Positions 58,356 to 62,282 of a DNA stretch of 64,000 bases are shown one piece after another. The DNA comes from Paenibacillus sp. 37. Lineage in GTDB: Bacteria > Bacillota > Bacilli > Paenibacillales > Paenibacillaceae. Made by a program: the position numbers and the translations under genes. Position 1 is the stretch's first letter. Each line of letters opens with the position of its first letter. The notes below the pieces were generated by a model. That model was not told the origin of the DNA and did no database searches. It saw only the letters and a program-made list of their open reading frames with translations. Location of the stretch: NCBI RefSeq assembly GCF_008386395.1, contig NZ_CP043761.1:6820001-6884000 (forward strand), written 5' to 3'.

Positions 58356-59054
58356 TCAGTCTTTTTTGGATTTCATGGTAAGCGGTGCATTCTTCATCAT
58401 CGGGTACGTAGACAGAAGTAGCGCACCGCCAATGCATCCCAGAACGGTGAACAATGTCATGCGATTGATCCTAGCAATCCACAACATAAACTCACCAAGA
58501 TCGCCCAATGTAATGATCAGCGTAAAGACCAAGCCAACCCCAAAGAACATAATGAAGAAGTTACGCATCCCCAAGCGCATCCAACAAACCGTTGGGAAGA
58601 ATGAGATTCCCAGTACGAGAAAGCCGCACATCAGATCGATCCACAGATAGGATAAGAAATGATATTCACTTGAATACAACATGCCCGGTTGATAAAGGGT
58701 TACGCCAACAATTCCTTTTTCCTGAAGCAGGTGTATGAGGAAATACGCCACATGCAGAATGACCATGGTGCCTGCAACCATCCATACCGAGTTCATATAG
58801 AAAGATTTCATGAATTGAATTCGTGTACTGCCCATACCGATCGCAACCGGAAACAGTGTAATAATTCCCCCGATTGCAAATGTACATATCCCTCCGTACA
58901 TTGGACCAAACAGTTGCGTAGCATACGAGACATCAAATATGAAGCCAATGGCCAGATATACAACGGCGAGCATCAGAGCGATGGATGAAAATATGCTCAG
59001 ATACAAACGCATATCATCGCGAATCAGTCGGTTCGTACCTTTTACTGCGTTCAT
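58356..59054 (-). CDS. ABC transporter membrane subunit of a YtrABC-like operon
   Basis: 232 residues with about six membrane segments (SIFSSIALMLAVVYLAIGFI at the N-terminus, FTLIITLGDLGEFMLWIARI, and FTVLGCIGGALLLSTYPMM). It overlaps the ATPase gene by 4 bp. No sequence family is named from memory, but position and topology match the permease of YtrA-regulated ABC systems. Confidence 0.8.
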   Translation of the reverse strand: MNAVKGTNRLIRDDMRLYLSIFSSIALMLAVVYLAIGFIFDVSYATQLFGPMYGGICTFAIGGIITLFPVAIGMGSTRIQFMKSFYMNSVWMVAGTMVILHVAYFLIHLLQEKGIVGVTLYQPGMLYSSEYHFLSYLWIDLMCGFLVLGISFFPTVCWMRLGMRNFFIMFFGVGLVFTLIITLGDLGEFMLWIARINRMTLFTVLGCIGGALLLSTYPMMKNAPLTMKSKKD

Positions 59055-59926
59055 GGTTTAACCCCCTCTTGATTACGGGTCCTGTTAACCAAATAATCTT
59101 GTAATGTCGCTTTCTCAATGGAAAGCCCCTGCGAATGAGCGATATCCTTCCACATTTTCGAGTAGGGCTCATCAATCATCACTTTCACAGTCGATCCCAT
59201 CTGGGAAGACTCTATAACTTTAACACCTGCTGTGACTCGGTTGATATCGTTAATTGCCCCTGTTAGAAGAACTCCTTTTTCGCGCATCTCTTCCATCGGT
59301 TGATTTAACAACACCTCTCCAGCTTGCAAAACGATAATGGACTCACATAAAGGCTGAATCTCCTCAATATGATGGCTGGATATCAGAATCAGACGCGGGT
59401 TATCTTCATAACTTTCCAGTAGCGCATTGTAGAAGAACTTACGCTTCTCAGCATCGAGCCCATTGGTGGGTTCATCCAGAATGGTTATCTTTGCATTACT
59501 GGCAAGACCTAATATAATCTGGGTGGCAGTCTTCATGCCTTTCGAAAATTTAATGATTTTCTTCTTCTCCGGTAGTTCGAACACATTGATTAAACGTTCC
59601 GCCAAATCCTGATTCCACTGCGGATGAAAATATTGCCCCATTTGGACCATGTCACTAACCGTCCAGTTTTTTCCCAGGGGATGATTCTCCTGGATGTAGC
59701 ACAGATGCTCTTGGGCAGCCAGATTATTATAGGGGTCTTGACCCATGATCTGAACGGTTCCACTGTCCGGGCGGTTATGCCCTGCCAGTAAACTCATCAT
59801 GGTTGTTTTGCCCGCTCCATTTCTTCCCCAGATTGCACCAATGATTGGCTCACTCTCATGTAGCGTAACCTGGTTCAGAACGGGCGTCTTCTGGTAGCTG
59901 TAGTTGACCTGCTCCATATGAATCAT
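59051..59926 (-). CDS. ABC transporter ATP-binding protein (YtrB-like)
   Basis: 291 residues. Walker A WGRNGAGKTTM (about 33-43), Q-loop IQENHPLG, signature KFSKGMKTA (degenerate LSGGQ, as in YtrB and YxlF relatives), Walker B ITILDEPTNGLD and H-loop SSHHIEE. A C-terminal extension of about 80 residues follows. It overlaps the GntR gene and the permease gene by ATGA each. Related systems respond to cell-wall antibiotics. Confidence 0.88.
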   Translation of the reverse strand: MIHMEQVNYSYQKTPVLNQVTLHESEPIIGAIWGRNGAGKTTMMSLLAGHNRPDSGTVQIMGQDPYNNLAAQEHLCYIQENHPLGKNWTVSDMVQMGQYFHPQWNQDLAERLINVFELPEKKKIIKFSKGMKTATQIILGLASNAKITILDEPTNGLDAEKRKFFYNALLESYEDNPRLILISSHHIEEIQPLCESIIVLQAGEVLLNQPMEEMREKGVLLTGAINDINRVTAGVKVIESSQMGSTVKVMIDEPYSKMWKDIAHSQGLSIEKATLQDYLVNRTRNQEGVKP

Positions 59927-60303
59927 AACTCACTCTCCTTATCCTTCTTGCCGCGAATCAGATCAATAATCATGTCTTCATTCATGTGAATCCGTCTGGC
60001 TTCTTCAAGTAAAGGCTTGATGTATTCTTCATAAAAATCTTGCTTCCGTTCAACGAGCAATGCTTCTCTTGCTCCCTTTGCAACAAACATTCCAACACCT
60101 CGCTGTTTGTATATAATCCCCTTGTCCACGAGTTCCTGCAGTCCTTTGCGGGCTGTAGCCGGATTGATATTGTAGAAGCGCGACAGTTCATTGGTTGAGG
60201 GAACCTGTTCTTCCACCTTCAATCTGCCTTCCACAATATCGTCCATAATCATCGTAGCAATCTGATGAAAAATAGGCTGAGATTCATCCAAAGTCGATTT
60301 CAT
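59923..60303 (-). CDS. GntR-family repressor (YtrA subfamily)
   Basis: 126 residues: a winged helix (PIFHQIATMIMDDIVEGRLK; PSTNELSRFYNINPATARKG LQELVDKG with break) and a short helical tail, the YtrA size class. ATG 60303 follows GGAGG at only 3 nt. ATG 60330 has no SD. First gene of a three-gene operon overlapping by ATGA; it probably represses it through the repeats at 60345-60366. Confidence 0.85.
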   Translation of the reverse strand: MKSTLDESQPIFHQIATMIMDDIVEGRLKVEEQVPSTNELSRFYNINPATARKGLQELVDKGIIYKQRGVGMFVAKGAREALLVERKQDFYEEYIKPLLEEARRIHMNEDMIIDLIRGKKDKESEL

Positions 60304-60344
60304 GTGCCTCCAACTTTCATACGTATTCATTAGTGAGTTAGTCG

Positions 60345-60402: not shown

Positions 60403-60573
60403 TTAATTCATCGCCTTTCCTACCTTGACTCTATTGTATTGATTAATAAGCCTGTCCAGGACTACGGATTGCTGGATCACTTCCGGATGAAGCAGACTAC
60501 CGTATTCCATATGCATGCGATATAACAACTGTCTGGCATCTTCGATCCGTGATATCAAATCCAGGCGATCCAT
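60403..60573 (-). CDS. Spo0E-like aspartyl-phosphate phosphatase
   Basis: 56 residues, two helices, with the Spo0E-family motif SVVLD (SxxxD) before RLINQYNR. Such proteins dephosphorylate Spo0A~P and delay sporulation. ATG 60573 has SD GGAGGG 5 nt away; an upstream ATG at 60594 has none. It stands between the YtrA-type operon and the pro-peptide gene with its own leader. Confidence 0.85.
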   Translation of the reverse strand: MDRLDLISRIEDARQLLYRMHMEYGSLLHPEVIQQSVVLDRLINQYNRVKVGKAMN

Positions 60574-60664
60574 AGTATCCCTCCTTTTTGTCATATTTTA
60601 GTGTATTATGCCAATCATAAGCGCATGTGAGATACGACATACTTATTCTTCCACTTTGATACAC

Positions 60665-60703
60665 AAAAAAAGAACGCTTCTGATTTATTCAGAAGCGTTC
60701 TTT
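60665..60703 (-). terminator. Terminator of the RRNPP-peptide operon
   Basis: GAACGCTTCTGA/TCAGAAGCGTTC with a 6-nt loop, then seven T on the minus strand, 8 bp after the pro-peptide stop. Confidence 0.92.
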
Positions 60704-60710
60704 ACTTTTA

Positions 60711-60851
60711 TTAAGTTCCAAATCCATGATCAGCGGGTCTCATAATTTCGGGGTTCGGGATTTCCTTGCCTGGGACAGGTTCCGTAGCAGGGGCTACGAT
60801 GGATACAACGATACTACAGGTAGCTATCAGCAAAGCCAACTTTCTCTTCAT
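60711..60851 (-). CDS. Secreted pro-peptide of an RRNPP quorum-sensing pair (46 aa)
   Basis: ATG at 60851 encodes MKRKLALLIATCSIVVSIVA then a hydrophilic tail ending PADHGFGT. A basic n-region, hydrophobic core and short Pro-rich C-terminal part are the form of Phr, NprX and AloP-type pro-peptides. The gene starts inside the last 38 bases of the receptor gene in another frame and is followed by a strong terminator. The mature signal should be the C-terminal 5-8 residues (inference). SD GAGG is 12 nt away, so coupling to receptor translation is likely. Confidence 0.8.
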   Translation of the reverse strand: MKRKLALLIATCSIVVSIVAPATEPVPGKEIPNPEIMRPADHGFGT

Positions 60852-62196
60852 TGAGTTTCTGCACCTCACTAATTATCATTTTGTATTGCTGTTTCGCCGT
60901 CTCAGATGCAAATTCCCGATATTGCTCGAACAGTCCGACACCTCTAAGCATACCTCGTCCACTGCTAATTTCAATAGAAAATTTTAAACTATCCAGCACA
61001 AATTCTATCCCTAAATGATACTCGTCTTTCTTTAGATAATATGCACCCAAATCTGCTAAAAGTCTTAAATATCGATCATCCGTAACCTGACTGCTCACTT
61101 TGCCAATTCGGTTACTCTGTTCCTGATAAGTGAAGTACGATTCATACTGTTTGAGAACATGATCAATATCCTTATCATAACGATTAGCCGCTGTTACAAT
61201 ATCACACAGCGCTGGGAATATTTCATTTTCCTTCGTCGAGATATACGCCAGATAATCAGGTAACACCTCAAAATGACCACCCATTAAATGATATATATAT
61301 CGATTCGCTTCAGCCCATTCCTGAAACTGATTCATAACAACGATTTCATCTTTATCCGGGTTCCTCACCCAGCGATTATCCGAATATAAAGAAACATATT
61401 TAAGTGCCCCAGTGTAGTCCTTCAATTGATAACAGGCACTTCCTGCAGCTAGATCGGAGTATAGAATATAGAAAACAATTGGTCTTTTTGTCTCTTCTTG
61501 TTTCCGTCGGCCATTCATCTCATAGTGGATGGACGCTTTTATTTTCAATTTTTCAGATAACTCCTGAACCTTGTCCCATCTATGCAATGCTCCAAAAGCA
61601 TTAATCAGTTCGTTAAGCGCATCCAACTGGAAGCGTTCATCCAGCCGATCCACATAATATTCGAACCGAGATGCAATAATCAGATTCCGGTGCTGATCAT
61701 TGCTCAGTCCCAACCTGAACAGTCGGTACTGACAGAGTGCAAGCCGCTCGGAATGTTGCATTTTCTCGCTTTCAGCAATGTTTTCATATAGAAGAATGGC
61801 TGGTTTGAATTTACCCGCTTGGTAGAATTCTTCAGCCACATCAAATAACAAAGGAATATAGGATAGATTATCCATCATCAGACGAATAACCTCTTCAATA
61901 CAGTCCAACTTGTCCAACTCGGCACAGCGATGAAGGAAGGGTCCCAGTCTTCGCCAGTCCGGGGTCGCGTGTACAAAACACTCGTCTATGTATAACTCAT
62001 AGAAGTAACCTTCTTCCAGTCTCATGGCAGAAGTGATGCGATCCAACTGCTGCATGGCAATAGGCCGATTTTTATTCAAAATATTGCTGAGCGTACCCGA
62101 ATTAATCCCTGACGTTTCCGAAAAATGACTAATGGACATCTGTTCACGCTTCAGATAACTTTCCAAGTGATCGCGTATCGTGGTTGTCGACTCCAA
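60814..62196 (-). CDS. RRNPP-family peptide receptor/transcription regulator (HTH + TPR)
   Basis: About 460 residues. The N-terminal Cro/CI-type HTH (MSISHFSETSGINSGTLSNI, about 18-40) is followed by about 400 residues of helical repeats of TPR type (FKPAILLYENIAESEKM; ALKYVSLYSDNRW; YHLGIEFVLDSLKFSIEISS). This is the plan of PlcR/NprR/AimR/AloR receptors that bind a re-imported peptide. The best start is TTG 62196 after GGAGGG; ATG 62226 has no SD. The overlapping downstream gene encodes the likely cognate peptide. Paenibacillus has many such pairs. Confidence 0.88.
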   Translation of the reverse strand: MESTTTIRDHLESYLKREQMSISHFSETSGINSGTLSNILNKNRPIAMQQLDRITSAMRLEEGYFYELYIDECFVHATPDWRRLGPFLHRCAELDKLDCIEEVIRLMMDNLSYIPLLFDVAEEFYQAGKFKPAILLYENIAESEKMQHSERLALCQYRLFRLGLSNDQHRNLIIASRFEYYVDRLDERFQLDALNELINAFGALHRWDKVQELSEKLKIKASIHYEMNGRRKQEETKRPIVFYILYSDLAAGSACYQLKDYTGALKYVSLYSDNRWVRNPDKDEIVVMNQFQEWAEANRYIYHLMGGHFEVLPDYLAYISTKENEIFPALCDIVTAANRYDKDIDHVLKQYESYFTYQEQSNRIGKVSSQVTDDRYLRLLADLGAYYLKKDEYHLGIEFVLDSLKFSIEISSGRGMLRGVGLFEQYREFASETAKQQYKMIISEVQKLNEEKVGFADSYL

Positions 62197-62253
62197 ACGA
62201 ACACCACCCTCCAAAATAAAAAACATAAACGGGATTATCGGTATGCAAAAGTA

Positions 62254-62282
62254 ATTATATGTAATTAGAAAGTATCGGTCAA
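62254..62282 (-). promoter_or_regulatory. Strong promoter of the RRNPP receptor gene
   Basis: Minus-strand -35 TTGACC (62277-62282), 17-bp spacer, -10 TATAAT (62254-62259). A direct repeat TATCGGT occurs near 62235 and 62275, on either side of the -10, and TAATTATATGTAATTA overlaps the -10; both are candidate receptor sites. Confidence 0.65.

Follow-up and report, generated by a model that had tools for sequence, protein, structure and literature searches.

Layout of the cassette and its pro-peptide

The window is a stretch of 64,000 nt from Paenibacillus sp. 37 (NZ_CP043761.1, positions 6,820,001 to 6,884,000), in which a receptor gene (aloR), a short pro-peptide gene (aloP) and a spo0E-like gene follow one another on the minus strand. 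Their features, in window coordinates and from the promoter onwards, are as follows.

62254..62282, minus: promoter-like site of aloR, TTGACC-17-TATAAT, 11 of 12 positions matching
60814..62196, minus: aloR receptor gene, 460 aa from TTG 62196 (62226..60814, 470 aa, from ATG 62226)
61610..62196, minus: constant half of aloR, from the HTH to residue ~205 (counted from ATG 62226), by sequence comparison
60690..61610, minus (edges ± 30 nt): exchangeable block, sensing half of aloR and aloP, ending near the terminator, by sequence comparison
60711..60851, minus: aloP pro-peptide gene, 46 aa, ATG 60851, overlapping aloR by 38 nt
60714..60731, minus: last six codons of aloP (pN/pS 0.066), encoding DHGFGT as the likely mature signal
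60669..60703, minus: intrinsic terminator 3' of aloP, hairpin of 15 pairs
60589..60653, minus: conserved promoter region of the spo0E-like gene with a −10-like box (TAAAAT, 60595-60600), candidate AloR target
60403..60594, minus: spo0E-like gene, 63 aa, PF09388 match with 45.3 bits (cut-off 23)

The promoter and the terminator had been proposed from the letters alone in an earlier reading of this DNA (the sequence-only reading), and both were recovered at their places; among the matches listed, the TATAAT box is conserved and the hairpin is visible in the ortholog alignment. TTG 62196 is the likelier start of aloR than ATG 62226, because 460 aa is the length of many database homologs. For the spo0E-like gene, the likelier start is not ATG 60594 but ATG 60573, which stands behind GGAGG and gives 56 aa. 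Further downstream (58356-60330) lie a GntR-family regulator (PF00392), then frames resembling an ABC-type ATPase and a membrane protein, the last two named by eye.

A relative of the receptor (E ≤ 1e-20) was found in at least 68 of 75 genomes of the genus and an ortholog (≥ 75% identity) in at least 48 of them; the 75 ortholog loci were collapsed to 48 distinct ones. In every one of these 48, an ATG stands at exactly −38, i.e., 38 nt ahead of the end of the aloR stop codon, followed by an open frame, and this constancy, together with codon-structured substitutions, argues that the aloP frame is more than chance. A 46-residue pro-peptide beginning in the last 38 bases of the receptor gene was what the sequence-only reading had claimed; as a test it asked whether the small frame is also conserved beside other such receptors, which is the case in 48 of 48 orthologs. 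The −38 register is also the commonest one in more distant Alo-like loci (34 of 64, the next register 11 of 64; the 64 include some repeats but not L004, L044, and L141). AloP begins with MKRKLALLIATCSIVVSIV; with its 46 aa and a probable N-terminal hydrophobic helix it resembles the short ORFs immediately downstream of Alo receptors, described as 32–50 aa long (PMC7425212). No family in Pfam or NCBIfam matched the peptide. Its earlier description as unannotated is only partly true, because 11 AloP homologs stand in protein databases, two of which are named there by their source, as “hypothetical protein”.

The last six codons of aloP are under strong purifying selection (pS 0.717, pN/pS 0.066, 48 orthologs) and the middle of the gene, outside the overlap, evolves loosely (pN/pS 0.60), a pattern by which the C-terminal hexapeptide DHGFGT, already suspected as the signal, would most likely be the signal of this locus. 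The hexamers of the 48 orthologs are DHGFGT (24), DHGLGT (20), and DHGFGS (4). The suggestion that the signal may be new therefore stands in one respect, as it differs from the characterized SHGRGG, and falls in another, since a signal common to 24 of 48 orthologs is not special to this strain. In the 108 loci for which a peptide ORF was picked, the xHGxGx hexamer takes 24 different forms and x is filled by 12 different residues; HGxG was absent in 21 of the 108, some of which may reflect a wrong choice of ORF. In L046 and L047, five residues (ESPNP) are tandemly duplicated in the middle of AloP, with the C-terminal hexapeptide unchanged.

No family of Pfam or NCBIfam matched AloR above its cut-off. 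In Pfam, HTH_26 matched below its threshold (E 6.9e-4, 20.3 bits, cut-off 22), PHROGs gave weak matches to the HTH region only, and a profile built from AloR matched HTH regulators but, among solved structures, only short HTH and chance matches. The AlphaFold2 model is confident and all-helical (pLDDT 89.3, pTM 0.80, 51 sequences), with an HTH (helices 17-67) followed by helical repeats. NprR and Rap structures were among its best fold matches (Foldseek, VIA-align), tied with generic TPR proteins; as the latter rank equal to RRNPP receptors, the fold alone was not used to assign membership.

Alo systems were described in Paenibacillus by Voichek 2020 (PMC7425212). In the Alo13 system of P. polymyxa, AloR activates the downstream spo0E-like gene and SHGRGG shuts it off (PMC7425212). 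We located AloR13 in three genomes through its SHGRGG peptide, where three published primers match within 3 mismatches. The codon-pattern search for SHGRGG hit 18 places in 13 of 75 genomes and, since a reversed control pattern also matched many genomes, most single matches are due to chance; only those adjoining an Alo receptor (L143, L145, L146) were followed. AloR is 33–34% identical over ~460 aa to these AloR13-type receptors that precede SHGRGG peptides. Both loci have a receptor with an HTH and a (here putative) TPR-like half, an overlapping downstream pro-peptide with an N-terminal hydrophobic helix, an xHGxGx C-terminal hexapeptide and a spo0E-like gene next, so the resemblance to AloR-AloP pairs noticed earlier extends to the whole layout. 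They differ in the low identity of the receptors, in the hexapeptide (DHGFGT vs. SHGRGG) and in the overlap (38 nt vs. 50 nt). The cassette is thus a genuine AloR-AloP system of the Paenibacillaceae RRNPP quorum-sensing type, known in kind. The polymorphism and the exchange of the receptor's sensing half with aloP, treated below, go beyond the first reading.

Signal types and divergence of the sensing half

The orthologs fall into two trans-species signal types, defined by the peptide (fourth hexamer residue): DHGFGT/S (F, n = 28) and DHGLGT (L, n = 20). Both flanks are ≥ 94% identical in 87 of 1128 ortholog pairs, which have genomes in common and hence are not independent. Same-type pairs (41) remain similar through the block (median 97%, minimum 88.7% identity), and different-type pairs (46) reach only 76.7–81.8% identity in this stretch between mid-aloR and the aloP stop. 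When the 46 pairs were compared in bins of 20 residues, receptor residues 1-200 averaged 97–100% identity and later bins 58–94%. In five finely profiled pairs, divergence begins near 61,610 and stops near 60,690. Within the block of the W/L058 pair, about 150 nt return to 92–98% identity, and therefore the block is not always exchanged whole. The joint (~205) falls at helix 197-213 of the AloR model, and all nine receptor positions with disjoint residues between the types (212, 213, 255, 257, 266, 269, 270, 445, and 463, counted from ATG 62226) are located behind it.

The divergence is also silent: over the 46 pairs, 314 of 3171 fourfold sites differ in the front half, compared with 1521 of 2974 in the sensing half, which points to imported or long-separated DNA and not to fast amino-acid change. 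A single change of the F/L label is needed on the tree of the sensing half, against 12 on the upstream tree, 12 on that of the receptor front half and 11 on that of spo0E plus downstream DNA; shuffled labels need 15.4–15.5 changes on average, with minima of 10–12 (200 shuffles). A single clade of the 20 L-type loci was rejected with p-AU values of 4.9e-5 for the front half and 4.8e-63 for the upstream DNA. Reciprocally, the sensing half rejects (p 4.6e-4) the monophyly of a species cluster that forms one clade upstream and was named after inspection of the trees. The trees of flanks and sensing half, taken together, indicate two old allelic modules that are common to several species and seated on local flanks. 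That the sensing half of aloR and aloP were replaced together as one block, with the DNA-binding half and the neighbouring gene constant, is well supported by these comparisons, which also strongly suggest that signalling languages are switched by block exchange.

A second Alo locus of the same genome (locus II; L163 4221-5609, G000:C1:459217-460608), with a receptor 44% identical to AloR and a peptide ending in NHGAGGY, was examined after the spo0E locus had revealed the pattern. The sample comprised part of the listed places at 41–45% identity (20 regions) and L031-L041, without L165, L168, L170, L173, and L181 (35–38% identical, neighbour gene not found) and without the repeats L167, L175, and L183 (of L031, L032, and L034). 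A luciferase-like monooxygenase neighbour was matched in 22 of the 24 loci, our own included (20 of them at ≥ 86%), and 13 different C-terminal heptapeptides were counted. Upstream DNA is ≥ 90% identical in 58 of the 276 pairs. The 45 of these with different peptides are 96.8–100% identical over receptor residues 1-190 and 39–74% (median 47%) from residue 206 on, whereas the 13 with the same peptide showed no drop in receptor identity past the joint. Five loci of a different type were profiled against our own; past aloP the sequences become similar again for L184 and L176, but not for the other three. The joint lies where it does at the spo0E locus, near receptor residue 205, and the contrast is stronger; Alo receptors therefore seem to combine a DNA-binding half that stays the same with a sensing half that can be exchanged and moves together with its signal. 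One match to the SHGRGG pattern in our own genome, 5.6 kb behind locus II, within the span of a 239-aa frame and with no adjoining Alo receptor, was set aside.

Candidate target, proposed working and alternatives

A Spo0E-like gene just downstream had been noted from the start, and it follows directly in 43 of 48 orthologs, 217-287 nt behind the receptor stop. The remaining five (L059-L063, the illinoisensis/xylanilyticus group) have no such gene within 1.5 kb behind aloP (2.5 kb in three same-species loci) and retain aloR-aloP and DHGFGT/S, hence spo0E is not the only possible target. The promoter block before the spo0E-like gene was seen in most of the 43 orthologs (divergent in L085, L090, and L091) and, in the ortholog alignment, not in the five without the gene. 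Its 28-nt core occurs once in the genome at ≤ 3 mismatches, and its upstream element has one further match there (3 mismatches). The spo0E promoters of 50–62% relatives have only a loose layout in common with this locus. By eye, TGNCATA-like repeats were seen in spo0E promoters, for which no operator is claimed. The earlier ATG (60594) of the spo0E-like frame overlaps the promoter-like region.

The locus is best explained as a quorum-sensing system of the AloR-AloP type whose specificity module can be exchanged, a reading that we regard as probable. AloP would be made together with AloR, secreted, trimmed to DHGFGT (processing suggested by conservation and by Alo13) and re-imported, and the TPR-like half of AloR would then capture the peptide. 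If the locus works as Alo13 does, AloR without peptide would activate the adjacent spo0E-like gene at low density and the peptide would turn it off, so that high cell density might lift a brake on Spo0A and sporulation. The constant DNA-binding half of AloR would keep the target, and the sensing half from ~205 on is, as sequence comparison shows, exchanged between relatives together with aloP, an exchange expected to create distinct signal groups with no cross-talk. We infer that the F and L types are mutually deaf; as F and L are both hydrophobic, however, the two signals may be cross-recognized.

Considered jointly, the two loci probably follow one scheme, in which the constant DNA-binding half fixes the targets and the variable sensing half, from a fixed joint at ~205, is inherited as a unit with the signal gene. 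Through homologous recombination, with one crossover in the shared front half and another past aloP, “languages” would be swapped without rewiring of the regulon, balancing selection would maintain the alleles in several species (two for the spo0E locus and no fewer than 13 C-termini for locus II), and the hexamer residue x would serve as the main address.

It is rather unlikely that we are dealing with an ordinary Alo system with one functional signal, whose F/L difference and divergent block would be old recombined DNA of unchanged specificity. Such a system would accommodate the conservative nature of an F to L change, the mere nine receptor positions at which residues are wholly disjoint between the types, and the partial block in at least one pair (W/L058), but not so easily that sensing half and peptide type change together (1 change vs. 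11–12 on the flank trees) or that the same joint at locus II separates receptors with strongly different peptides. Still less does the evidence favour divergence of the second receptor half by fast adaptive point mutation instead of exchange. Arms-race-like diversification of signal and receptor is conceivable in communication systems generally, yet within the same pairs the silent fourfold sites of the sensing half are five times as divergent as those of the front half, the sharp edges are common to five pairs and the tree topology switches within one gene, which makes this account very improbable.

Another doubt concerns the target, which could mainly lie elsewhere if spo0E were merely a frequent neighbour. 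The persistence of aloR-aloP in the 5 of 48 orthologs with no spo0E in the searched range speaks for this, as does the report that AloP13 also reduced the expression of other aloP genes (PMC7425212). We nevertheless think it improbable, given that spo0E with its conserved promoter block is located close behind in 43 of 48, that the 28-nt promoter core is single in the genome at ≤ 3 mismatches, and that Alo13 acts directly on its own spo0E in B. subtilis (PMC7425212).

If the reading of an exchangeable specificity module is true, the many peptide signals within one genus could stem from ready-made cassettes of receptor half and peptide plugged onto an existing DNA-binding half, and a block swap is predicted to change the language while the target stays. 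Neighbouring Paenibacillus strains with the same sporulation switch might then be mutually deaf, and the alleles would offer natural matched sensing modules for asking what determines RRNPP specificity.

Relation to known systems and further Alo receptors

Joint polymorphism of signal and sensor is already known as a kind, because the two vary jointly in ComQXPA and in agr; ComP is internally split into constant and variable parts, and the Rap receptors are not known to carry an HTH. In ComQXPA of Bacillus subtilis, the signal gene and the sensor vary together in a polymorphic block and strains fall into signal groups, as described in PMC4408185, but the sensor is a membrane histidine kinase and the peptide is modified, while here the receptor is a cytoplasmic RRNPP protein with a constant DNA-binding half. 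Rap-Phr, comparable through the putative TPR-like half of AloR, pairs a TPR receptor with an adjoining secreted pro-peptide, with divergence centred on one variable peptide residue; in contrast to the block exchange seen here, Even-Tov 2016 (PMC5199041) reports no evidence of recombination-driven divergence between Rap homologs. In the arbitrium system (AimR-AimP-AimX), AimR turns on the gene that follows and the peptide silences it again (according to PMC7425212), a circuit that for this locus is only proposed; arbitrium is phage-borne and controls lysogeny, whereas the next gene here is spo0E-like. ComR-ComS of streptococci, with signal groups and an RRNPP-type receptor of HTH and TPR halves, is comparable to the layout proposed for AloR, but its divergence is between species and by coevolution, with no block exchange described in the consulted portion of PMC8605241.

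The main text of the Alo paper (PMC7425212) makes no mention of pherotypes, of which this locus has two exchangeable types; polymorphism and diversification are unmentioned there and recombination appears in a reference only. No description of exchangeable Alo modules was found in the open-access literature, searched at the level of listings and abstracts. Within that literature, the new element appears to be the form seen here, in which the RRNPP receptor is cytoplasmic, its DNA-binding half is constant and the joint is fixed.

Some genomes of the genus carry ~20 or more Alo receptors (e.g., G006, 15–21 matches each), and the window's genome has three at E ≤ 1e-20 among the matches listed. 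Its third Alo-like receptor (L003, G000:C1:575286-576665) is 39% identical to AloR; no downstream peptide was found for it, and it is possibly an orphan receptor. L004 (G000:C1:6963476-6964273) and several other places hold weak relatives (22–33%) of the receptor's sensing half only, aligning from query residue ~195-245 on, i.e., near the joint, and are perhaps free-standing sensing-half proteins.
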